Both the position numbers and the translations under genes were made by a program. Under the pieces are notes generated by a model. That model worked only from the letters and a program-made list of their open reading frames with translations. It made no database searches and had not been told where the DNA came from. Positions 22,344-33,617 of a stretch of 62,927 nt of DNA are shown piece by piece. This DNA is from Alistipes sp. Its GTDB lineage: Bacteria; Bacteroidota; Bacteroidia; Bacteroidales; Rikenellaceae. Location: contig JAFVOR010000049.1 of the NCBI GenBank assembly GCA_017505725.1, forward strand, positions 1-62,927, written 5' to 3'. The stretch's first letter is position 1, and each line of letters opens with the position of its first letter.

Positions 22344-22859
22344 CTATAGGATAGTATCCAAGGCAGACTCTATATCAGCGTAGGATGGCACGGGGTCATC
22401 GGTAAAGATGTAGCGCACACGCCCCTCGTTGTCGCTAATGTAGACTCGGGGAATGAGACTCTTGGCAAAGAGCGAGTAGACCGCCCTATCCTCCTGAGGC
22501 GAATATGGCATTGTGAGGTTGTGAGCAGACCAAAAAGCGGCAACCGACGCTGCCGACTCCTCGCGCCCAATCAGCGCAAAGGCTACTCCTCGAGGCGAAT
22601 ACTCATCGTAGAGGGGTTGTATCTGGGGTAGCAACTGTTGGCAATCGGGACAGGTCGTGTGAAAAAAGAGCACCACAGCGACGCTCTTACGCAGCGATTC
22701 ACCCGTAACCACGCTACCATCGTTCATCGTAATGGCGAAGTCGGGCAAGAGATCACCCATACGCACCACCTCACGCCTGCCCGGCACATCGTCGTTGATG
22801 CAGCCACCCAGCCAGAGTGAACATATCGCAAATATAAATATGGTACAGAGTCTCTTCAT
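22344..22859 (-). CDS. Thioredoxin-like (TlpA/AhpC-TSA type) lipoprotein
   Basis: About 171 residues. The lipobox is LGGC near residue 19, so it should be anchored in the outer or inner membrane facing the periplasm. The redox centre is FFHTTCPDCQQLLP (CPDC), and the cis-Pro region is LIPRVYISD. By family it reduces or oxidises disulfides, or is a resacetin-type reductase for cytochrome maturation; the partner is unknown. The ATG at 22859 is preferred over a GTG at 22868 because the signal peptide begins MKRL. A -7 box stands at 22904-22897. Confidence 0.85.
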   Translation of the reverse strand: MKRLCTIFIFAICSLWLGGCINDDVPGRREVVRMGDLLPDFAITMNDGSVVTGESLRKSVAVVLFFHTTCPDCQQLLPQIQPLYDEYSPRGVAFALIGREESAASVAAFWSAHNLTMPYSPQEDRAVYSLFAKSLIPRVYISDNEGRVRYIFTDDPVPSYADIESALDTIL

Positions 22860-22896
22860 AGTGAACACGCAGAGGGCAAGTGCCCAATTCGGATAT

Positions 22897-22904
22897 CAAA
22901 TATA
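22897..22904 (-). promoter_or_regulatory. -7 box of the thioredoxin-like gene
   Basis: TATATTTG on the minus strand, 37 nt upstream of the ATG at 22859. Confidence 0.65.
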
Positions 22905-23024
22905 GCCATTTTTCGCATTTTTTCAAACAAGAGAGTACAAAAACCGGTCTCTATGATAGATTATATCGAGTAAAACATCTATATTTACAAGAGCATAGCC
23001 TCGATTACATAACACAACAACAGA

Positions 23025-24215
23025 ATGACGAAAGGTATCATAGGCGCCATCATAGGCGATATTGCGGGTTCATCGCGAGAGATGAAGCCGGTCTCAAGAG
23101 AGGGATTCAAGCTATTCACCAAGCTATCGACCATCACCGACGACACAGTACTCACCGTAGCAGTAGCAGAGTGGATGCTCGACCGCAAGAGGGTAAGCAT
23201 CGATCAATCACTTCGCAAGTGGGCAACCAACTACCCGCACGCAGGCTACGGAAGTTCGTTCAAGCGTTTCTGCAACTCCGCACCAGGCACAAGCCTCACA
23301 AGCATCCACAACGGTGCGGTGATGCGTGTAAGTTCGGTGGGATTCCTTGCCACCACCATCGAGGAGTGTATGGCATTGGCTCGCGAGTCGGCAGTTCCAA
23401 GCCACAATAGCAAGGAGGCCATCGAGGCGGCACAAGCAACAGCAGTCGCCATATTCCTTGCCCGTAACGGTGCTACGAAGGAGGCGATTCGTGACCACAT
23501 TGAGAGTCACTTCAACTACGACCTGAGCAGACCATACGACACCCTACGCGAGGAGTTGAGAGTGGCACGCACCGACCGAAGCCAAGCCAACCGCGAGGCA
23601 AACCACGAGCGTGTAGTGGGAGCATACACATCGGTACAAGATGCACTCATTGCATTCCTCTGCGGCGAGAGTTACGAGGATGTCATCCGCAAGGCTATCT
23701 ACTTGGGTGGCGATGCCGACACTGAAGCAGCCATTGCGGGAGGCATTGCCGCAGCCTACTACGGTGTACCCGACGAGATTGTCGAGCAAGTGCTCATCTA
23801 CATCCCATCCGACATTCTCGAGGTGGTAAACAGGGTGGATGGCACCAGTTGGAGAGCATCGAAGCAGATACCGCCTAAATCCTTGCGATGGAGCAAGAAC
23901 GATATCGTAATCTACGCCTCCGACGAGTACGACACCAAAGGCGAGAGTTCATACTACCTCACCCACCCATCGCGATTCCACCGCCACTACAACGAGGGCT
24001 ATGCGCTTATAATCCTGGGTGACACCCCTGTCTTGCTTGAGGAGCAGGTTGCGTTGCTGCGCCGCAAGTGCGAGGATGGCAAGCATCTGCGCTGGCATCT
24101 CCACGACATTGGCATCGAGAGCGGTATGCTCACCACCGAGGAGTTCCGCGCGCTCTTCGCTTGGGCGCTTGAACTTGACAACGTATTAGTAACCCCGACA
24201 CTCTTAAACCGATAG
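23025..24215 (+). CDS. ADP-ribosylglycohydrolase family protein with extra C-terminal domain
   Basis: 396 residues. The first 265 or so are an all-helical ARH fold with the metal-binding motifs GDIAGSSRE (start), TITDDTV and GGDADTEAAIAGGIAAAYYG (GGDxDT near the end); these coordinate the two Mg ions. ARH enzymes remove ADP-ribose from proteins, nucleic acids or small molecules. The remaining 110 or so residues (from about SLRWSKNDIVIYASDEYD) are not part of the normal family length, and I do not recognise them. An HD hydrolase gene begins 3 bp downstream, so the two are probably co-expressed. Confidence 0.88.
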   Translation: MTKGIIGAIIGDIAGSSREMKPVSREGFKLFTKLSTITDDTVLTVAVAEWMLDRKRVSIDQSLRKWATNYPHAGYGSSFKRFCNSAPGTSLTSIHNGAVMRVSSVGFLATTIEECMALARESAVPSHNSKEAIEAAQATAVAIFLARNGATKEAIRDHIESHFNYDLSRPYDTLREELRVARTDRSQANREANHERVVGAYTSVQDALIAFLCGESYEDVIRKAIYLGGDADTEAAIAGGIAAAYYGVPDEIVEQVLIYIPSDILEVVNRVDGTSWRASKQIPPKSLRWSKNDIVIYASDEYDTKGESSYYLTHPSRFHRHYNEGYALIILGDTPVLLEEQVALLRRKCEDGKHLRWHLHDIGIESGMLTTEEFRALFAWALELDNVLVTPTLLNR

Positions 24216-24218
24216 CAG

Positions 24219-24710
24219 ATGAAACGAGTAATTGATCTATTGGCGGCTATCAACCGCCCAGGAACCGACAAGCTCATCGAGTACCTCAAGGCAAGCAACT
24301 ATGCCACAGCACGTTGTTACACACATCACAAGGAGCGTGGTGGGCTTGTCGCACACTCTCTCGAGATATACGAATTGATGAAGCGAGATAACCCGAATCT
24401 CTCCGAGGATTCGATTGCTATATGTGCGCTCCTTCACGACTTGGGCAAGGCTAAACTGCACGGTTGGGAGTTCGATGGTCAGCACCCTGCGAGAGCTATC
24501 CAGATACTCGCCCGATGCGGTTACCAGCTCACCGAAGATGAGGCATTTGCCATCCGCTACCACCACCGCAAGAGCGGGGATCTCTTCACCCACGCCTACC
24601 GCCGAGCCCTGACCAAAGCCGATATGCAGAGCACCGGCAACTGGAAGAGGGCTCACACAAAACCAACTGCCCGAAGGGCTTTATATGACGCATTCACGAG
24701 GCTGTTGTAA
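24219..24710 (+). CDS. HD-domain phosphohydrolase
   Basis: 163 residues, translationally close to the ARH gene (3 bp). The metal-binding set of an HD hydrolase is complete: His in GGLVAHSLEIY, the HD pair in CALLHDLGKAK, a further His in QHPARAIQIL, and YHHRKSGD near the end with a closing Asp in TKADMQ. HD proteins hydrolyse phosphoesters of nucleotides or nucleic acids; the substrate is unknown. The last codons form one arm of the terminator, so the C-terminus and terminator overlap. Confidence 0.88.
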   Translation: MKRVIDLLAAINRPGTDKLIEYLKASNYATARCYTHHKERGGLVAHSLEIYELMKRDNPNLSEDSIAICALLHDLGKAKLHGWEFDGQHPARAIQILARCGYQLTEDEAFAIRYHHRKSGDLFTHAYRRALTKADMQSTGNWKRAHTKPTARRALYDAFTRLL

Positions 24711-24730
24711 ATTCACAACAGCCTCGTGAA
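24693..24730. terminator. Bidirectional terminator overlapping the HD gene end
   Basis: A perfect 16-bp stem, TTCACGAGGCTGTTGT (24693-24708) with its mirror at 24715-24730, around a 6-nt loop. The left arm includes coding sequence of the HD gene. Confidence 0.9.
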
Positions 24731-24755
24731 ATTATGTGTCTATTCTCAGGAGACT

Positions 24756-25352
24756 CTACTTATTCTGAATCACCTCATCCAAGAAGCCGAGTTTGATAGC
24801 CTCCTCAGCCTTCATCCAATTGTCTCGATCGCACATACGCTCGATCTCCTCGATGGATTGGCCACTATTGTCGGCAAGCACCTCGTAGAGATCGTGCTTG
24901 AGGCTCTGCATCTCCTCGAGATGAATCTGCTGGTCACGGAATGTCGAGTATCCGACACCCGAGCTTGGCTGGTGAATCATAAAACGAGAGTATGGCAACG
25001 CCTTGCGATGGCCCTTCTCGCCATTGCTGGCAATGACGGCCGCCATCGAAGCCGCCAAACCCAGCACTGTGGTATAGACCGGCGACTCGATATATCGCAT
25101 TACCGAAACAAGCTCCAAACCTGCATAGCACTCGCCACCACCCGAATTGATATAGAGGTGGATAGGGTTGTGGTTAAGCGAGTTCAAGAATAGCATCTGG
25201 GCCACAATGGTATCCATCTTATCGCCATTGACCTCGCCACTGAGGAAGATGATACGATCCATCATCAGACGCGAATAGACGTCGATTATGGTCATATTCA
25301 GAGGGCGTTCCTCGACTATATTGGGACAAAAAATATTCTTAATATCATTCAT
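24756..25352 (-). CDS. ClpP-family serine peptidase, non-canonical paralogue
   Basis: 198 residues with the full ClpP triad: Ser102 in GLAASMAAV, His127 in FMIHQPSS and Asp177 in CDRDNWM. The strand usually reading INSPGG is INSGGGE here. ClpP forms a 14-subunit chamber that degrades proteins fed by an AAA+ unfoldase. The usual partners tig and clpX are absent; instead the gene lies 26 bp after a protein-kinase/AAA+ fusion on the same strand. That suggests a dedicated, phosphorylation-linked protease rather than the housekeeping one. No ClpX-type IGF loop is seen in the neighbour, so physical coupling is unproven. Confidence 0.9.
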   Translation of the reverse strand: MNDIKNIFCPNIVEERPLNMTIIDVYSRLMMDRIIFLSGEVNGDKMDTIVAQMLFLNSLNHNPIHLYINSGGGECYAGLELVSVMRYIESPVYTTVLGLAASMAAVIASNGEKGHRKALPYSRFMIHQPSSGVGYSTFRDQQIHLEEMQSLKHDLYEVLADNSGQSIEEIERMCDRDNWMKAEEAIKLGFLDEVIQNK

Positions 25353-25378
25353 TGTTGTTCATTTTTTTGAGATTTCAA

Positions 25379-27184
25379 CTAAAGTGGGCTCACAACCGAG
25401 CGGTCATTCACATTGCGACGGTCGGTAGACTCCATCTTCTCCTTAATCTTCTCGTACTGCTTGAGACTATCAGCGCAGACCGAAGGGCGCGTATTGCCTA
25501 CGGAGGTCAAGAGCAACTCTCGAGAAATCTTCTTTCGAGAGTAGGCGGCTATGGTTGCCGAGTCATTGACAATGTAGGCTATGTCGCTCGCAATGTAGCC
25601 TTCGGTCAGTTTAGCCAGCTCCTCATAGTCGATATTCTCCTCCAAAGGACGGTTACGCAGATGGATTGCAAACATCTCCTTGCGAGCCTCGAAATCGGGC
25701 AATGGCACATAGATGAGTTTATCCAATCGACCCGTACGCAAGACTGCCGGATCGATCTTGTCGGGGCGATTGCTCGTTGCCACGATAAATATTCCTCGCT
25801 TTGAGCAGTTGTTCATCTGCGAGAGGAACTCGTTAACCTCCTCGGAGGCTACATTATTCCAGGTTCGGTCAGGAACAAAGGCATCGAACTCATCGAAGCA
25901 GACCACAATAGGCGCATTCTGCGCAGCCTGATCAAAGAGCTGACGAATCTTCTCCTGACTACCGTGTACAAACGAACTTGCAAGGTCCGACGCCTTGATC
26001 AACAGGTAGTTAAAGCCTGTCTCCTCGGCAAACTTCTCGGCGAAGAAGGTCTTTCCACATCCCGGAGGGCCATAGAGAAGCATTCCGTTAGGTGGGAATA
26101 TTCTATACTGCTCGGCAATCTCCCTATCCTTGAGAACAAAGATAACCTTCTGCTGCAACAAGCTCTTCAGCTCGGCCATTCCTGCAATATCTGCAAAACC
26201 ATTACCCTCGCCCTTCTGAATGTGGAACTCCACACGATTAGGGCTCTGGCTCGAGACACTCGACTGCTGTGGCTGCGACTTGTGAGGAGCGGATGAGCCA
26301 CCCGATGAGTCGTTGTTCTCGACTATATCCGACGAGTCGAGGTCGGAGAGTATCTCATCCACATTCGCATATCGCTCGGTATTCTTCAGTTCGAGACCGC
26401 GCTTCAGTATGTAGCGAATCTTGTCGCTCGCCTCAACAGTACCGAAATCCAGCTTATTGCTCTTTCGATATTGGTGCAGAGGGGCAAATTTCTCTCGGTA
26501 GGTACCCTCCTCGGGAAGTTCGATATTCCAGGGTGCGTTTCCCGTCAACATAGCGTACAGAGTGGCGCAAGCCGAGAATATATCCGACTGCTCGTCGAAT
26601 ATCGAAACTCGAGTCTCGTTGGCGTGATAGAGCGGATCGATATCGGATGTGTCGAAGCAGGCTGTTCCGTAGGCACGCTCCGAGATATGGCCCAAATCTA
26701 TCAGTTCGGCCTCATCGTTGTTCACGCTGTTGAGTATGATGTTGGTTGGATCCAAATCGTTGTGACACAACACCGGAACACGACTATGCAGATACTTTAA
26801 TGCCTCGAGAATACCCCTGAAAATCTTGACAGCGACATCCTCCTGAAGCTTACCCTCCTGACCTATCTTATCGGCAAGCAACACTCCGTTGAAATAGTTT
26901 GTGACGTAGTATTGACAATTTGCGCCACCTATCTCTTTCTCGCCCGACTCGATGCATCCCACAATATTCTTGTGGCTGAGCTGCTGCGCAAACTCAATCT
27001 CTCGCACCCTTTTGGTTTGAGGGTCGACAAGATTTTGCGGAACACGGTTAAGCACAAAGAGTTTGAGGAAGCAGACAACACCTTGCTCACTCTCCACACG
27101 ATAGGTCTCGGTGTAGACGTTTGATTTGATTAGGCTCTGAACGCGATATGCGCCAATGCTATCACCCTTATCCAAAAATGCCAT
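25379..27184 (-). CDS. Protein-kinase / AAA+ ATPase fusion
   Basis: 601 residues. Residues about 10-285 are a Ser/Thr-kinase-like fold: catalytic Lys41 (CFLKLF), catalytic loop HNDLDPTN (141-148, with Asp143 and Asn148 kept but Asp in place of the usual Lys), and DLG (163-165) for DFG. A Ser/Gln-rich linker (about 292-314) leads to a single FtsH/Cdc48-type AAA+ domain: Walker A GPPGCGKT (372-379), Walker B VVCFDEFDA (427-435), a sensor ATSNRPD and an arginine-finger region RTGRLDK. There are no membrane segments. A strong Shine-Dalgarno AGGAG precedes the ATG. Location beside ClpP suggests a regulated unfoldase; kinase activity is plausible but not certain. Confidence 0.9.
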   Translation of the reverse strand: MAFLDKGDSIGAYRVQSLIKSNVYTETYRVESEQGVVCFLKLFVLNRVPQNLVDPQTKRVREIEFAQQLSHKNIVGCIESGEKEIGGANCQYYVTNYFNGVLLADKIGQEGKLQEDVAVKIFRGILEALKYLHSRVPVLCHNDLDPTNIILNSVNNDEAELIDLGHISERAYGTACFDTSDIDPLYHANETRVSIFDEQSDIFSACATLYAMLTGNAPWNIELPEEGTYREKFAPLHQYRKSNKLDFGTVEASDKIRYILKRGLELKNTERYANVDEILSDLDSSDIVENNDSSGGSSAPHKSQPQQSSVSSQSPNRVEFHIQKGEGNGFADIAGMAELKSLLQQKVIFVLKDREIAEQYRIFPPNGMLLYGPPGCGKTFFAEKFAEETGFNYLLIKASDLASSFVHGSQEKIRQLFDQAAQNAPIVVCFDEFDAFVPDRTWNNVASEEVNEFLSQMNNCSKRGIFIVATSNRPDKIDPAVLRTGRLDKLIYVPLPDFEARKEMFAIHLRNRPLEENIDYEELAKLTEGYIASDIAYIVNDSATIAAYSRKKISRELLLTSVGNTRPSVCADSLKQYEKIKEKMESTDRRNVNDRSVVSPL

Positions 27185-27217
27185 TATATATCTCCTGTTT
27201 TATTGTGAAATTAAACG

Positions 27218-27297
27218 AGGAGGGTGTCCAATAACTCTTTGGGACACCCTCATCTTGTGAGAATCTGTATAACAAGAGCTATTTTGAAGCTGCTCGC
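27218..27297 (-). repeat. Dispersed intergenic repeat, copy B, with terminator hairpin
   Basis: GAGGGTGTCC (27220-27229) pairs with GGACACCCTC (27242-27251). The following 43 bases match copy A at 5761-5803 in 36 positions, all differences being transitions. It lies between the YbjN-like gene and the kinase/AAA gene. On the minus strand the T-run is weak, so read-through is possible. Confidence 0.8.
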
Positions 27298-27318
27298 AGC
27301 CCGAAAAAGCGGAGTTTA

Positions 27319-27699
27319 CTACTCATTGATATGGTGGTAGAACACTTGCTGTGCCTGAACCAACATATCGCAGCAACGCTCGAAGAAGTCATCAAGATCC
27401 GGAGTTGTATCGATGAGAATCTCGATCGAGAGGTGTACGGTATTTTCGTATGCGAAGGCCTTCACAACCTTGCGATCGAAGCATACAGAGTTGATAGCCT
27501 CGAGTGCCTTGGTTCTGTCACCCTCAATCTCGTAGATACCTGGCATAAGTATGCGCAAGAAGAGCGGATCCTCATCGTCAGCAGGGCAGATCATATTTTT
27601 ACCCTGGTACTTAAAGATAACTGCGCCATCAGAATCGACCTCGTGCTTGTAGCCTTCGCTCGACAACCACTCTGTGATAAGGTTAGTTTTTTTGCTCAT
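27319..27699 (-). CDS. YbjN-like (type III secretion chaperone fold) protein
   Basis: 126 residues, soluble. The pattern FKYQGKNMICPADDEDPLFLRILMPGIY, a helix with Cys, then a strand repeat (HLSIEILID) and a final amphipathic helix fits the YbjN fold, related to type III secretion chaperones. Such proteins usually bind partner proteins and regulate stress or envelope functions. It is upstream of the kinase/AAA and ClpP genes on the same strand, separated by the repeat-hairpin. A role as adaptor for that protease module is an attractive guess only. It has its own -7 box. Confidence 0.7.
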   Translation of the reverse strand: MSKKTNLITEWLSSEGYKHEVDSDGAVIFKYQGKNMICPADDEDPLFLRILMPGIYEIEGDRTKALEAINSVCFDRKVVKAFAYENTVHLSIEILIDTTPDLDDFFERCCDMLVQAQQVFYHHINE

Positions 27700-27741
27700 A
27701 GTTTGATTGGTTTGAAGTTAATACTGGGTGAATTTCCCTCA

Positions 27742-27749
27742 CAAACTTA
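27742..27749 (-). promoter_or_regulatory. -7 box of the YbjN-like gene
   Basis: TAAGTTTG on the minus strand with a TTG about 20 bp upstream (plus-strand CAA at 27770-27772); 42 nt before the ATG at 27699. Confidence 0.6.
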
Positions 27750-27845
27750 ATAAAAACTCACGAATCAAACAAGAGATGCCCTAAAAAATCGGCTTCGACA
27801 TTCTTTTTTTCCCAATCTGAGACGGTCTCCAACGCACCTTACAGA

Positions 27846-28043
27846 TTATGACGATTTATCCATACATATATATATGGTGAGACATATCGAAGAGATGAGA
27901 CCGATGCCTGTGCCTATAAGTATATTTTCACGATCCTCCATCTCGGGTGTGAACACCACATACAGGAACACCGCCAACACGCACAATGATATAGTGACAG
28001 ACAGACCACAAATCAACCAATTCGCTCTATTTCGCGTAATCAT
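27846..28043 (-). CDS. Small two-helix membrane protein
   Basis: 65 residues: a short basic start (MITRNRANW), a first membrane segment (about 10-31), a polar acidic turn (FTPEMEDREN) and a second membrane segment (about 41-59), ending CMDKSS. I do not recognise a family. It is supported by a good Shine-Dalgarno (AAAGAGGAG, 3 nt before the ATG), which is unusual in this genome. It follows the fimbrial operon terminator on the same strand, with no clear promoter of its own. Confidence 0.6.
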   Translation of the reverse strand: MITRNRANWLICGLSVTISLCVLAVFLYVVFTPEMEDRENILIGTGIGLISSICLTIYICMDKSS

Positions 28044-28083
28044 ATACTCCTCTTTCGTTAAATCAATACATTTTTCTTTGCAA

Positions 28084-28120
28084 GCCCCTGCTCACCGCAC
28101 TCAAGCACTGCGAGCAGGGC
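28084..28120 (-). terminator. Hairpin at the end of the fimbrial operon
   Basis: GCCCCTGCTC (28084-28093) pairs with GAGCAGGGC (28112-28120). The T-run after it on the minus strand is poor, so termination may be partial. Confidence 0.6.
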
Positions 28121-28128
28121 TCATTTCA

Positions 28129-31100
28129 CTACTCCCTGAGGATGATATCCTCGTCACGGGTTGCCATTCTGTAGAGTGTATCAAGGCTATCGATGGTGAT
28201 CTCGTAGACCTTCTCGCCCACGATATAGGAGAGCAACAACTCATCCTCGGTCCAACTGAACTCATACTCGGCACGAAGATTCAACGAGTAGTGTCCATCG
28301 CGTGTGATGGTCATCGAGCCGATGCGTACACCCGACTTCTTGACCGCGAAGCTCACAAACTCATCCTTAGCAACCGAGCGAACCACGCCATCGGCCTCGT
28401 ACTTGATGGTACCCTCGATGTGGGTATTATCAATCTTAAATCGTTTCTCGAAGAACTCCACAACCTCCATCTGCGACGAAATAACGATCTCGCCTGCCGA
28501 GGTGATATCCGACGTTACGAAAGGCAGAGTCTTGCGCTCATTGGCCTGCGACGCAACAGCAGTGGCATCAACCATCTTGACGCTCTTGCCATTGCCCACT
28601 GCACGCTCTGCCTCGCGCGAGGCATCTACGGTATAGACAAAGCGACCTGGGATTGTTGCGTGAGGCTTGAGCTTGGCCGCCATCTCCGGCGAGAGGCGAG
28701 AGTGGTCGATAGCCAACATCGGAGCATCGATATATACCTCGAAAGCGGTACCAAACGGATCGGCCGAGCGACCGTCAGAGCCGGCAAAGCTGGTCACCTC
28801 CAACTCGATATCCACCTTCTGATTTGGAAGGTATGACCACTCGAGCTCATCCACCGCATCGGCAACAGTTATCATATCGGCAGCTGTATTCCAAGTGCCT
28901 ACAGGGGTACCGCCATTGATACCCACCTGAGCGCAGAAGCGGAATGGGCGGTAGGTTGCAAGCTCGAAGATGAATGAACGATAGGTATTTCCGCTGTATG
29001 GAGCATTGACACCCGGCAAAGCCGAATTGCTACCCGGCTGATTCGAGGCAATACGAATCATATCATCACTCTTGGCAACATTGGTCTTAAGGTATATCGA
29101 ATACTTGCCCTTATCATCACCTGTCTTATTGATATTGTTAGGCTTGAATATAATCATACGACCATTTGTACTCTGCTGCCAATAGTTGTCGTCTACACGA
29201 TAGAACTCGCAGTCCCAAACCCAATCCTCGGTCAAGCCGAACATATCGCGATCGGCCTGATTCTGCAACGAATCGAGTGTGCGGGTGTAGGCGATAAACT
29301 CGTCGTTGGCACCGGCGTTGATACGACCATTCGCATCGTTGAGTGTAACGTCGAGCTGCACCGGAGCATTCACCTTGCGCGGAACGAGTCTGTAGTAGAT
29401 TGGCTCGTCGGTCACACCGCTCTCACGCAACTCGTTCAAACCATCCACGCTGATATAGTTCTGGTGCGAAGCGTATTGGAAGGTCTTGGTTACCGTCTCG
29501 AAAAACTCAGCCTCGAGCATAATATTATCCGAGCCACCATCTACGTGGGTAAGCACGCTATGAAGGTAGAGTCGCTGTGTACCAGGCTCTGTAACAGTGT
29601 ATACATACTTGTAGCCCAAGCCGTTATCCACTCCGTAGTAGTCCTCCTCGCCAACTCGCACCACAGGCAATACACGACCCGTGGTCTCGGTGCGAGCATC
29701 GAGAGAGTTGACCGACACATAGACCTTGAATGGGAAGAATGGGAAATCCTCAGGAACAGTAAACTTGAGGGTTGCCAGCTCGCCCACCTCACCTCCATAG
29801 ATTTGGGTGGCAGCCCATACCGGCGTAAACTTCTGAGTCTTGATGAGAGTGATGTGCACATAGCGATAGAGACGACCCTTCTTCACAATGAGTGTACCCT
29901 TGAGTGACGGATTGTTATCCATCTCGAGGAGCTGCAATGTCACCTTACCGTTACCTGTGCGACCCGATGTGGTGAAGTTGTGGCTGAACGAGTGTGCCGC
30001 CACGGCGTTGCCCTCCAACCACTGCACCTCGGCAATATCGTCACTTGTGAGGTCACCCGCCGAGCTTGTGATGGTGTAGTTGATGTCGATTGTGGAGCCC
30101 GCCTTATCCTCACCCAAGACAATGTCGGTCTCCTCGACCGCAAGGGTGATATCCTCGTAGGAGACCTCGTTGACCCAATCCTCGACTGCTACCCACACAT
30201 TGTTGGTAGCGGGTGCGGTCAACGCCTCCTCGAAGGTTGCTCTTCCGTAGGTGAGCTTGCCTGTGATGTTGAGCTTGTAGTGATGGTTGCGTCGAATCAT
30301 CATCTGCTCGCCATTCTCGTCGATAATCATCACTCGGTAATAGAGCTCGCTATTGCCACCCACAGGAGTACCACGCAAGATAACACTCACGGGATCCTGC
30401 AACGAGTTCTCGTGCTCGAATATATACTCCTCGGGCTTGGTTGTGACATCGGTAATATCCGACATCTTCGCGAGATTTTGTGGCAATGTGACAAAATCAT
30501 CGCCCGGCCACACAAAGTCCGAGGTTATTCCGTTGCTCATATCACCCACCACAGGGAAACGCTTTACGGGGTGGTGTGGAGCAGTTGTACCAAAAGCGTG
30601 TATGTTGGTGACCGCATATCCCGAGATGTTGACAAAGCCATTGCTCGTTCCGTTGGCGATGGAGATCATAGCCTGATTGCGGATGAGCTTGATGCCCTCG
30701 CCATTGTTGGCATTGAGCAGCTGCTGCTGGAAGCTACCCTCGTTCGAGAATACGAAACGACTCCAATAGATGATCATACCCGATGCACCTACCATATCGT
30801 CCTGAATCTCATCCTCGGCGCGATTGATGAACATATCGGCATCGAGAAGGTCGGGATTCTGGTTGCCCACGAAGTGGATGATGCGGGTATCCTCTGGGAT
30901 GGTCGCCACATACAAGCCCGACAACGATGGTTTCTCGGCTGCAGGGTTGAGTTTTGCTGCAACGTGGGTGATATACAAGCCAAAGTCGTTGAAGCAGAAG
31001 AGTGTCAGGTTCTGAATATCTATACCGTCGGGGTCGACACCTCGCACCGCCACCTCTGTCATAGCCGGAACATTTGTTGCAAACTCGATATTGACATACC

Positions 31101-31212
31101 CCTCGGGAGCACTCATCTGCGGAGGGTTGTCGCCCATCTCCACATCCTGCTGGCAAGCAACAAACAGGCCTGCAAGGAGGAGCATCATCATATATGAAAA
31201 CTTCTTTATCAT
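28129..31212 (-). CDS. Large fimbrial lipoprotein, probable tip/accessory subunit
   Basis: About 1027 residues. The signal peptide MIKKFSYMMMLLLAGLFVAC ends in a lipobox Cys. The N-terminal 350 or so residues look like a fimbrillin-type (Mfa/Fim) double beta-domain; further beta-rich domains follow, in the style of DUF4906-type proteins of Bacteroides fimbrial loci. By analogy with P. gingivalis Mfa5/FimC-E it would sit at or near the fibre tip and mediate adhesion. The start at 31212 is set by the lipoprotein signal; an upstream in-frame start at 31302 would add 30 charged residues before it. It is the last gene of the operon. Confidence 0.8.
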   Translation of the reverse strand: MIKKFSYMMMLLLAGLFVACQQDVEMGDNPPQMSAPEGYVNIEFATNVPAMTEVAVRGVDPDGIDIQNLTLFCFNDFGLYITHVAAKLNPAAEKPSLSGLYVATIPEDTRIIHFVGNQNPDLLDADMFINRAEDEIQDDMVGASGMIIYWSRFVFSNEGSFQQQLLNANNGEGIKLIRNQAMISIANGTSNGFVNISGYAVTNIHAFGTTAPHHPVKRFPVVGDMSNGITSDFVWPGDDFVTLPQNLAKMSDITDVTTKPEEYIFEHENSLQDPVSVILRGTPVGGNSELYYRVMIIDENGEQMMIRRNHHYKLNITGKLTYGRATFEEALTAPATNNVWVAVEDWVNEVSYEDITLAVEETDIVLGEDKAGSTIDINYTITSSAGDLTSDDIAEVQWLEGNAVAAHSFSHNFTTSGRTGNGKVTLQLLEMDNNPSLKGTLIVKKGRLYRYVHITLIKTQKFTPVWAATQIYGGEVGELATLKFTVPEDFPFFPFKVYVSVNSLDARTETTGRVLPVVRVGEEDYYGVDNGLGYKYVYTVTEPGTQRLYLHSVLTHVDGGSDNIMLEAEFFETVTKTFQYASHQNYISVDGLNELRESGVTDEPIYYRLVPRKVNAPVQLDVTLNDANGRINAGANDEFIAYTRTLDSLQNQADRDMFGLTEDWVWDCEFYRVDDNYWQQSTNGRMIIFKPNNINKTGDDKGKYSIYLKTNVAKSDDMIRIASNQPGSNSALPGVNAPYSGNTYRSFIFELATYRPFRFCAQVGINGGTPVGTWNTAADMITVADAVDELEWSYLPNQKVDIELEVTSFAGSDGRSADPFGTAFEVYIDAPMLAIDHSRLSPEMAAKLKPHATIPGRFVYTVDASREAERAVGNGKSVKMVDATAVASQANERKTLPFVTSDITSAGEIVISSQMEVVEFFEKRFKIDNTHIEGTIKYEADGVVRSVAKDEFVSFAVKKSGVRIGSMTITRDGHYSLNLRAEYEFSWTEDELLLSYIVGEKVYEITIDSLDTLYRMATRDEDIILRE

Positions 31213-31268
31213 AGTCTTATGTAGTGTTATCTTGTTTTGTATCTGTTGTACGAAAACTATTTGCCTGC

Positions 31269-33617
31269 TTAGTATGCATCGCGCACGCAACGGATACCCC
31301 ACGACGAGGTTACCGACTCTGGTGGAGTATGTGTATTCTGGTCGTTGTTAGGGTTGAACACACGACCCGAGGCTGCATAGTAGTAGATACCGTTGAGCAG
31401 GTAGTCGATAGCATCGGCACTGACATCGGCTGTACCCTGCAACTCGGTGATAATCATCAACTCGGCCTCGGTCGGAAGACGGAAATCGTCGTAGATAACC
31501 TCCTCACCGGTCTCAGGATCGCGAGTAACCTCCACATAGTAGGCACACTGGTCGCGAGCCACCGACTGCTGCTTAGCGACGGTATTTGCCTTATCCTTGG
31601 ATGTTCCCGAGAATACAACGCCCAAACGCGAAGCGGTCATAAACGACGGTGAGACGATATGACGGTTGTCTTCCGCAGGATCGGTATAGTAATAATCTAC
31701 ATTGTTATCGGTTATCATACGAGGCTTAGTGAGCTTGTAATCCTTCGATGTTGCGGTGATGCGGATGTGGTACATACGAGCATTCGCTGGATCCTCCGAG
31801 CCGCTATAACCGATAGTCCACGCATCGTCGCCATTATCCCAGCTCCAGGAGAAGTGGTCGATATTCGAACGACCCTCCGAGCGGGCAGCTGTAGATTGGC
31901 TGGCGCTCTCGCCCTTTGCGTACGTTCTACGCACTACATTCGAGTAGAAGAATGGCTGATTTTCGCTATTCCAGCTCGACGCTGTATTGTAGTTGTAGGA
32001 CCAACGACCTGTTGAGCTATTGTAGCTGTTGAGCGCAACATTGGTACGACCCGAGCCTCTTGCTGTAGGTGTCGCTGCTGCACCATCGCTCGTTGCGAAG
32101 TCCGAACGATACGAGTAGTAGCTAACCTGGTTCTTGATATAGACCAACGGATACTGCTCTACCTGTACGTACTCCACCTGACCGGTCTCATTCTCTACTC
32201 TGAGGGTGAAGTAGCGGGTGGTGTTGTTTGTTGGGATATCGCTATTTACGGTGATATTGCCCGACAAGGCCTGAGCCTCTGTTGTTGCCGACATATTAAA
32301 GTTGTAAATATTTGAGATTGGCACCTCGAAACCGAACTTATCAATGAAATATACATTCTCGACGGTGATTGTCACAGGCGACGACGATGCAAAGAGCAAC
32401 GAGGTAGCGTCGATATCGGTATTGAACATCTTGAGGAAGTCGAGATTCACCTTCAGGTACACCGGGCCAGCCTCGCCACCCACCTCGATAACCTTCTCGG
32501 TCCAAGGATATGCCGAGTAGTTGAGATTCTCCACCTCGACAGGCTCCGAGAAGTCCTCTGCACCCGGTGCGTGAACATTGGCGGTCACCGAGTAGTAGTG
32601 GTTGCGCTCGAACCTAAAATCCTTGCTCAAAGGGACCTGATAGTAGTTGTTGGGGTGCCCTCTCGTTACACTCTCGCCATTCACCTCGGAGGTGTAGTAG
32701 CAAGGGATGTCGACCAATAGGTTGGTAGCGTGCGAGAAGCTATCCGATGTCTCCCAAATGTGGCTATAGACATAGGTGGTAATCTCCACACCTGTGATGT
32801 TACCCTCGCCATCTTTCACCCACTTGTAGTATGGGCTCATTGTCTCGTGGGTAGTCTCCACATTATCGATCGTACGCAAAACTCCGTCGTTGATGACACG
32901 ACTCTCATAAGGAGTGTTACGCATATAGTAACCAGGGGTTGCACCCTCGATATTGTCGGTAAAACGCATCTTGGTGCTCTCGGCAGTAGAGAGGAGAACG
33001 ACAACCTTGGCAGCTGCACGACGCAACTTGACCTTCAAGGTCACTACATCGGTGATTTGCTGCTCGGCAATGACGATAGCCGAGGCAGAAGCCGGCTCGG
33101 TTGCCCCTTTGTAGGCTGCACCATCCATCAAGAAGTGCGTAGGAGTATTCTGCAAGCCCGAAGCGGTGAGGTGGATATTAAAGGTCTCCTCGTTGAGCGC
33201 AAGCAACTCCTTGAGGTTTGCCATAGCTGCGTAGTCTGTAGTCGCGTGGGTGGAATTTGCCACAACAAATACCCAATAGCGTGCTCCCACAACGATGTCG
33301 TTGATATTGACACCAAGGCGTACTGTGCCATCCGGCCCTGCAGCAGTGACACGCTCGTGATAGAAGAGCGAACAATCCTCTTCATCGGCAGCGTCGTTGA
33401 AAATCATCACATCGAGGTGGGTAATAGCCGACTCCGAGGTGGTATCTTCCACATCACCGGCACGCATATCTACCCCAAGATGACCTCCCTCAACGCTCAG
33501 CACTATGCCGCCACCATTTGGTGCGCCACCACCCAACTCCTGATCGATATCGCTGTGACACGCAACCGAGAGAGAGGCGATGAGAAGGCTCATTATGTAA
33601 AGTGTATATCGTTTCAT
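31269..33617 (-). CDS. Fimbrial tip-type lipoprotein with C-terminal lectin-like domain
   Basis: 782 residues with lipobox SVAC. The N-terminal half is fimbrillin-like (VVVLLS strand, ALNEETFNIHL). The C-terminal part has FRLPTEAELMIITEL and ends SSWGIRCVRDAY, the pattern of DUF1566/Fibrobacter-major-paralogue domains (C-type-lectin-like). This combination suggests an adhesive accessory subunit. It starts 21 bp after the upstream fimbrial gene and is followed by the 1027-residue subunit. Confidence 0.8.
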   Translation of the reverse strand: MKRYTLYIMSLLIASLSVACHSDIDQELGGGAPNGGGIVLSVEGGHLGVDMRAGDVEDTTSESAITHLDVMIFNDAADEEDCSLFYHERVTAAGPDGTVRLGVNINDIVVGARYWVFVVANSTHATTDYAAMANLKELLALNEETFNIHLTASGLQNTPTHFLMDGAAYKGATEPASASAIVIAEQQITDVVTLKVKLRRAAAKVVVLLSTAESTKMRFTDNIEGATPGYYMRNTPYESRVINDGVLRTIDNVETTHETMSPYYKWVKDGEGNITGVEITTYVYSHIWETSDSFSHATNLLVDIPCYYTSEVNGESVTRGHPNNYYQVPLSKDFRFERNHYYSVTANVHAPGAEDFSEPVEVENLNYSAYPWTEKVIEVGGEAGPVYLKVNLDFLKMFNTDIDATSLLFASSSPVTITVENVYFIDKFGFEVPISNIYNFNMSATTEAQALSGNITVNSDIPTNNTTRYFTLRVENETGQVEYVQVEQYPLVYIKNQVSYYSYRSDFATSDGAAATPTARGSGRTNVALNSYNSSTGRWSYNYNTASSWNSENQPFFYSNVVRRTYAKGESASQSTAARSEGRSNIDHFSWSWDNGDDAWTIGYSGSEDPANARMYHIRITATSKDYKLTKPRMITDNNVDYYYTDPAEDNRHIVSPSFMTASRLGVVFSGTSKDKANTVAKQQSVARDQCAYYVEVTRDPETGEEVIYDDFRLPTEAELMIITELQGTADVSADAIDYLLNGIYYYAASGRVFNPNNDQNTHTPPESVTSSWGIRCVRDAY

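Follow-up and report, generated by a model that had tools for sequence, protein, structure and literature searches.

A group of three genes, which may encode a dedicated ATP-dependent protease, was analysed in a 62,927-nucleotide stretch of DNA from Alistipes sp. (Bacteroidota, Rikenellaceae; GenBank assembly GCA_017505725.1, contig JAFVOR010000049.1). This stretch, called the window below, is a complete contig (C39) of an assembly of 2.36 Mb in 105 contigs, 85% complete and 5% contaminated. All three genes lie on the minus strand. In order of transcription, they encode a small protein of the YbjN/TY-Chap type (27319..27699, 126 amino acid residues, a proposed substrate adaptor), a protein with a kinase domain and a Cdc48-type AAA+ domain in one chain (25379..27184, 601 residues, a proposed unfoldase, named KAAA here), and a second ClpP peptidase with an intact catalytic triad (24756..25352, 198 residues, named ClpP2). 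The YbjN-like gene is separated from KAAA by 134 bp, and the KAAA stop codon from the ClpP2 start by 26 bp. The first-pass annotation of this DNA, made from the sequence alone, had placed the three genes at these positions, with the 26-bp gap and with no tig or clpX nearby, and all of this was confirmed. The stronger ClpP match of the genome is on contig C99, where the gene is flanked by what we take, from their sequences, to be the trigger factor and clpX genes, the latter directly after it.

The Pfam family CLP_protease matches ClpP2 with an E-value of 7.8e-58 (195.8 bits, cut-off 20.2). Residues Ser102, His127 and Asp177 align with Ser97, His122 and Asp171 of E. coli ClpP, and the alignment bears out both the intact triad and the sequence INSGGG that had been read in place of INSPGG. 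The proline of this motif is present in 51 of 51 canonical ClpPs (53 were found, 51 of them different), while the 16 ClpP2 proteins compared have Gly (12), Ala (2), Pro (1) or Gln (1) at this position. With TIGR00493, the NCBIfam equivalog model for clpP, ClpP2 scores 179.5 bits against a cut-off of 308.6, which marks it as a divergent paralogue and not the housekeeping ClpP. Many differences from the canonical proteins are fixed. They are densest in the segment matching E. coli residues 125-139 (the GGxQGQA region), which is replaced, with a one-residue insertion, in all 16 ClpP2 proteins. This region provides ring-ring contacts, and mixed ClpP/ClpP2 barrels therefore look unlikely. The positions of the hydrophobic cleft are mostly still hydrophobic (T/V for I90, L for M92 and V/I for L189). 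The genome of the window also contains a third ClpP-like peptidase of about 285 residues (G000:C101:28570-28986, L238). Arg192 of E. coli ClpP is needed for ClpX binding, according to PMC7112951. The corresponding position was not used as evidence; it is Lys in 14 of 16 ClpP2 proteins and Arg in 36 of 51 canonical ones, but the register is unsure because most ClpP2 tails have an adjacent Arg.

The AAA+ domain of KAAA with its lid spans approximately residues 322-586 (25427..26221, minus strand). Pfam AAA is matched at residues 368-495 (E-value 3.9e-34) and AAA_lid_3 at residues 517-547 (25.2 bits, below the cut-off of 27.2), and the helices of the predicted model reach residue 586. For the profile of the 13 KAAA proteins encoded beside ClpP2 (ClpP2-linked), the nearest solved structures are a VCP-like ATPase and p97, and a Foldseek search with the model concurs. 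The Walker A Gly and Lys, the Walker B Glu, the sensor 1 Asn and Arg483 are present in all 53 aligned relatives, the Walker B Asp in 52 and Arg486 in 51. No AAA_2, ClpB_D2-small or ClpX zinc finger is among the 11 Pfam families matched by KAAA at an E-value of 0.001, and the M41 domain is absent from the Pfam output. The NCBIfam scores are 202.3 bits for CDC48 (cut-off 802.65), 167.8 for FtsH (cut-off 600) and 95 for IetA (cut-off 510), and there is a single AAA domain, whereas Cdc48/p97 itself has two AAA rings and an N-domain. By the criteria applied, the sequence of KAAA places it outside the Hsp100, FtsH, Cdc48 and IetA families.

The kinase-like region occupies about residues 1-274 (26363..27184, minus strand), with the Pfam Pkinase match at residues 57-273 (E-value 1.4e-25; 90.6 bits, cut-off 31.7). 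None of the residues Lys41, Glu62, His141, Asn142, Asp143, Asn148 and Asp163 varies among the 13 ClpP2-linked KAAA proteins. KAAA thus has the Pkinase score and the catalytic Lys, Asp, Asn and Asp expected of a Hanks-type kinase, but the glycine-rich loop is not recognizable and LIKSNVYTETYRV occupies its place. This loop is atypical in all rows inspected except distant members such as L223. Among 50 aligned kinase regions, position 143 is Asp in 31 and Glu in 9, and position 163 is Asp in 37 and Gly in 9, so that several branches of the family look like pseudokinases. The branch of the window does not; with its catalytic residues intact it is a predicted kinase with an atypical glycine-rich loop. 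The first-pass annotation had suggested a sensor instead of an enzyme from the absence of the catalytic-loop Lys. This is weak evidence, since Lys41, Glu62, Asp143, Asn148 and Asp163 do not vary in the 13 proteins, while Asp143 or Asp163 is lost in other branches.

The YbjN-like protein of the window is matched by Pfam TY-Chap1 (E-value 0.0017) and YbjN (0.13), both below the cut-off; the protein scores 18.4 bits against 27. At E-values up to 1, each of these two families is matched by 11 of the 14 members of the protein family, with best values of 2e-10 and 1.3e-9, respectively. The AlphaFold model (predicted local distance difference test, pLDDT, 88) consists of a helix, four strands, a helix, two strands and a helix, and Foldseek relates it with a probability of 1.00 to the PDB structures of E. 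coli YbjN (6vu7) and of the type III secretion chaperones SycT, ExsC and CesT. The earlier label is therefore supported by the family matches and the predicted fold, and is weak for the sequence of the window protein taken alone. The fold and weak sequence similarity are shared with YbjN, TY-Chap and type III secretion chaperones; however, here the protein is tied to an unfoldase and a protease and not to secretion or ADP-ribosylglycohydrolase (ARG) systems. TY-Chap domains have been proposed as peptide-binding chaperones (PMC9503650, section 3.8), and the YbjN-like protein may be a substrate adaptor.

Genome contigs were scanned for ClpP2 with two peptide patterns and the best 80 of 185 confirmed stretches were kept; remoter ClpP2-like clades may be missed by such a scan. 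The ClpP2 proteins form a separate clade of 15 loci with 75-78% identity to the window protein, the next-best of the loci listed in the scan having 49%. Fourteen of these loci (L135-L148) are labelled Paludibacteraceae or Bacteroidales and one (L149) Rikenellaceae; L035, on the same contig as L149, was left out of the counts. The order YbjN, KAAA, ClpP2 on one strand occurs in 12 of the 15 loci. As L149 belongs to the genus of the window, 11 of these are outside it. In the same-genus genome G028, the module is on a contig of 36,937 bases. The recurrence in 12 of 15 loci elsewhere indicates that the gene order is beyond chance, and the conservation past close relatives on which the first-pass annotation had staked its proposal extends to a second family.

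The surroundings of the module are also conserved in the Paludibacteraceae-type loci. In 14 of 14, the module or ClpP2 is immediately preceded by a gene of an M24 aminopeptidase cluster, and in 13 of 14 a convergent gene of an HSP90 cluster comes after ClpP2 (for each cluster, the Pfam check covered one member). In the genus of the window, 162 of 180 genomes have a ClpP match at an E-value of 1e-45. Among the matches listed, the ClpP2 type is found only in the genome of the window and in G028, and the others are 45-49% identical to ClpP2. Pairwise distances over the 13 ClpP2-linked loci correlate for KAAA and ClpP2 (Spearman 0.89) and for KAAA and YbjN (0.95), an outcome that common descent also gives. 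An origin of the ClpP2 form on plasmids or phages found no support: among the 1952 plasmid records with a match, a single one, of the Hsp70-TerB type described below, covers at least 80% of KAAA, and none of 149 phage records does so. The genome of ClpP2 locus L141, G961, has two clpX-like genes (C6 and C34); ClpP2 is present there and KAAA was not found.

KAAA itself is present in 15 of 180 genomes of the window's genus, and in 18 of 393, 5 of 395 and 6 of 395 genomes drawn from the order, the class and the phylum, respectively, the genome of the window being counted in each draw. The 48 loci of the KAAA set comprise 13 linked to ClpP2 and 35 that are not; three of the latter (L132-L134) are AAA-only, without the kinase part. 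ClpP2 therefore does not belong to the core of the KAAA family, as 35 of 48 loci lack it alongside. This corrects the first-pass proposal, of which the kinase-AAA/ClpP/YbjN module as a candidate dedicated protease, with an order kept in a second family, is supported. A YbjN-like gene stands directly beside KAAA in 26 of the 48 loci and a TerB-like one (clusters c8 and c13) in 13 others, and no locus has both. The TerB label is thin. One of two c8 proteins and one c13 protein match TerB below the Pfam cut-off, the c8 protein of L040 gave no match in the Pfam scan, and the label comes also from the NCBI name of the equivalently placed gene on a Haliscomenobacter plasmid. Genes of proteostasis are among the other neighbours of KAAA, encoding a divergent Hsp70, a DnaK-like Hsp70, HSP90, a Clp ATPase and an M1 peptidase.

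These distributions allow another explanation, namely that KAAA works on its own, as a Cdc48-like segregase or chaperone under kinase control, and that the neighbouring ClpP2 is a co-regulated stress gene working with ClpX or ClpC without forming a complex with KAAA. The many loci without ClpP2, the occurrence of ClpP2 without KAAA and the Hsp70-like, DnaK-like and HSP90 genes among the neighbours all agree with it. We nevertheless consider it unlikely, due to the features of the C-terminus of KAAA: it is difficult to account for a conserved tripeptide at a predicted disordered end if there is no ClpP partner, and the class of the tail tracks the adjoining ClpP2.

The C-terminal tail of the window KAAA, residues 588-601 (25382..25423, minus strand), ends with SVVSPL. 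It follows the last helix of the model with pLDDT below 50 and is thus predicted to be disordered. Among KAAA-family proteins without adjoining ClpP2, pooled from five sets, a tripeptide hydrophobic-Gly-Phe/Tyr is found within the last 15 residues in 42 of 47: 32 of 35 in the first set, 3 of 5 (one FGF) in the phylum set, 1 of 1 on a plasmid, 4 of 4 in the class set (one protein cut by a contig end), and 2 of 2 copies standing away from ClpP2 in ClpP2 genomes (one without most of its AAA domain). The AAA-only L132-L134 and the short L042, L236 and L284 are included. The 13 ClpP2-linked proteins never have this tripeptide, and all 13 terminate in [VI]V-x-x-L (L138 with one extra residue). The tripeptide rate in shuffled tails is 1.8%, and among 430 other proteins of the loci it occurs in the last 15 residues of 23, of which 15 are ClpP2s having it within a conserved stretch. 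Ignoring relatedness, the association between tail class and adjoining ClpP2 gives a Fisher p of 1e-8. Two genomes, G028 and G964, show the contrast internally: the tail of the ClpP2-linked KAAA is the switched one, and IGF is kept by another copy, which is shorter (493 and 395 residues, respectively). A third KAAA copy in G028 (L038) belongs to neither class.

The tripeptide class is that of the internal loop with which ClpX binds ClpP. ClpX loops were read in the window genome and in 39 further ones, of which 37 are KAAA genomes, and all have the form [I/V/L/M]G[F/Y], the loop of the window genome being IGY; ClpX was not found at threshold in G335 and G776. This agreement makes the KAAA tail a good candidate for a ClpP plug. 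Tails of the xGY type occur solely with Y-type ClpX (10 of 10) and xGF tails with both types (16 Y, 8 F), a concordance that is suggestive only. In PMC7112951, the Ile-Gly-Phe loop of ClpX is described as occupying clefts between the subunits of ClpP, and the E. coli substitutions I268L and F270L as severely weakening ClpP binding. On this basis, a tail with a final Leu would presumably require a modified ClpP. The first-pass annotation had looked for a docking loop within the AAA domain, for which the C-terminal tail appears to be the better candidate. In the open-access literature searched, neither a kinase-AAA protein acting together with ClpP nor a tripeptide that docks to ClpP from a C-terminus came up, and this candidate docking element is new here.

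Two KAAA loci show further cases of the tripeptide. At L235 (3306-6416), a 1036-residue AAA protein (AAA, AAA_lid_6) directly before KAAA ends with KIGF, and may represent another class of AAA proteins that carry the tripeptide at the C-terminus. At L236 (6147-7334), a 395-residue KAAA has kept the terminal PIGFR although most of its AAA domain is missing.

Alternatively, the tripeptide might be conserved for its structure or as a degron and have nothing to do with ClpP docking, with KAAA feeding ClpP2 through another surface. Its absence from two distant members (L223, L224) and three nearer ones agrees with this. The explanation is quite improbable, on the other hand: the tripeptide belongs to the ClpX loop class of the same genomes, it stays constant while the surrounding sequence varies, and a second AAA protein adjoining one KAAA likewise ends in IGF. 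This explanation has the pairing of KAAA and ClpP2 in common with the docking proposal, and the degrees of belief given to the two are not mutually exclusive.

Several observations weigh against a docking KAAA as the partner of ClpP2. The tripeptide is missing in 5 of the 47 proteins without adjoining ClpP2 (L038, L043, L118, L223 and L224), and the match of F or Y between tail and ClpX is not significant (Fisher p 0.07). The p of 1e-8 is not over independent cases because the tail switch amounts to one or two events, and so the coupling of tail class and ClpP2 in these sequences rests on those events and on the within-genome contrasts. The ClpP2-linked KAAA proteins fall within one 16-row clade that includes three members without ClpP2, with tails IGY or IGF, and the approximately unbiased test (23 rows, tail columns removed) does not reject one clade for all ClpP2-linked proteins (p 0.19). 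An independent double origin of the pairing was set aside, as the 50-row tree needs two changes but the 23-row test does not reject one clade. We know of no ClpP-binding motif of the form [VI]V-x-x-L, and the cleft residues of ClpP2 are changed only subtly. The pore-loop aromatic residue is replaced by Leu in 14 of 53 KAAA relatives, and the KAAA model is only moderate (pLDDT 68, predicted TM-score 0.43). Finally, ClpP2 occurs without YbjN and KAAA in 3 of 15 loci (L141, L146 and L148). There the M24 aminopeptidase cluster gene, elsewhere upstream of the module, directly precedes ClpP2, which indicates that the two genes are missing together. The third of these genomes has KAAA at another place. 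The other two, metagenome-assembled and possibly incomplete, gave no KAAA and only FtsH-level AAA matches, so that ClpP2 must have another partner in them.

A different type of KAAA locus bears on the cellular role. An operon of c6, c7, Hsp70, KAAA and TerB-like genes is present in 3 of the 5 phylum loci and partially in the other two. In L123 it sits between BrxC and PglX genes, and a like-ordered Hsp70-KAAA-TerB operon on the Haliscomenobacter plasmid pHALHY02 (L280) adjoins brxL/pglZ. It is possible that this operon is a BREX accessory. The AAA ATPase and subtilisin pair IetAS is an anti-phage system, and the module resembles it in its two-gene logic of an AAA protein with a serine peptidase and in a related AAA domain. 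It differs by having no subtilisin, by adding a kinase and a YbjN partner, and by scoring far below the IetA cut-off.

The module might thus be an anti-phage or conflict system in which the kinase senses infection and the AAA protein and protease kill or disarm, as in IetAS. Besides the sister operons at BREX genes, this is suggested by the best PADLOC matches, IetA for the AAA part and PD-T4-6 for the kinase part, which are weak and concern common domains. The window also has ARG and HD-domain genes convergent with the module (23025-24710, plus strand), a combination that PMC9503650 (section 3.8) describes for conflict systems centred on ARG and including TY-Chap. However, the ARG gene has no homologue among the genes of the other loci, and the seven genes of the window that were scanned (22347-31302) include no subtilisin. 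The ClpP2 form of the Paludibacteraceae-type loci occupies a steady housekeeping site between the M24 aminopeptidase and HSP90 cluster genes. When ten proteins flanking six Hsp70-type loci were chosen and compared with PADLOC models, five gave a match (in L123 two to BREX, in L128 two to candidate-defence models, and in L121 a weak one), which also counts against it. We therefore regard a conflict system of this kind as very unlikely for the module. As to the cellular role, we consider conditional protein quality control the most likely one, and defence is a real rival because the sister operons are within or beside BREX loci.

Taken as a whole, the module is probably a dedicated ATP-dependent protease in which KAAA is the working partner of ClpP2 and the tail is the main contact. 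The YbjN/TY-Chap protein would bind unfolded or exposed peptides and hand them to KAAA, whose kinase region would control it, perhaps through the gating by phosphorylation or by a ligand that the first-pass annotation had inferred. The single Cdc48-type AAA+ ring would unfold the substrates and thread them into a homotypic ClpP2 barrel, gripping it by flexible C-terminal tails, whereas ClpX uses an internal IGF loop. Members of the wider family with the ClpX-type tripeptide are expected to use the ordinary ClpP of the cell, and the [VI]V-x-x-L tail of KAAA beside ClpP2 would serve ClpP2.

To our knowledge, the unfoldases that serve ClpP all belong to the Hsp100 group (ClpX, ClpA, ClpC and ClpE). 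The proposed protease resembles ClpXP, ClpAP and ClpCP in combining an ATP-dependent unfoldase with ClpP, and its wider family in the hydrophobic-Gly-aromatic tripeptide. However, KAAA belongs to the classic Cdc48 type of AAA proteins and contains a kinase domain, the tripeptide is C-terminal and not in an internal loop, and the ClpP2-linked members have a different tail. Proteasomal ATPases have tails of the hydrophobic-Tyr-X (HbYX) type after the last AAA helix, and HbYX or GQYL termini are typical of these ATPases and of Cdc48/VAT/Cpa. GQYL-like tails are mentioned in PMC10149685. KAAA has a Cdc48-type AAA+ ring and a flexible C-terminal tail in common with these proteins, but its proposed partner is ClpP2 instead of the 20S particle, it has one AAA domain with a kinase on the N-terminal side, and C-terminal HbYX is present in none of the 13 ClpP2-linked tails.

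Two further features of the window concern expression. A Bacteroidota-type -7 promoter-like element, TAAGTTTG (27742..27749, minus strand), is a candidate located 42 nt ahead of the YbjN-like start codon. It matches the -7 consensus pattern TANNTTTG, which occurs 65 times on both strands of the window against 31 expected, about twice. The 134-nt gap between the YbjN-like gene and KAAA contains a strong 10-bp hairpin (27220..27251, minus strand; fold z -3.8 for the gap), possibly an attenuator, and the terminator scan gave no site within 24700-27900. In the 11 Paludibacteraceae-type loci having both genes, this gap is only 2-9 bases.

It is conceivable, although we hold it somewhat short of probable, that KAAA represents an unrecognised class of ClpP-feeding unfoldase across Bacteroidota: a Cdc48-type motor fused to a kinase or pseudokinase, with swappable YbjN-like or TerB-like and Hsp70 partners, inserting a C-terminal tripeptide into ClpP, and with plug and socket re-keyed together in one lineage to give an orthogonal ClpP2 protease. 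A tail-docking Cdc48-type partner of ClpP would bridge Clp proteases and proteasomes and show how a peptidase can switch its class of unfoldase. The module would also provide a natural, possibly orthogonal, ClpP pair whose plug and socket are testable by tail swaps, and a protein kinase domain would be tied to the proteolytic motor itself.

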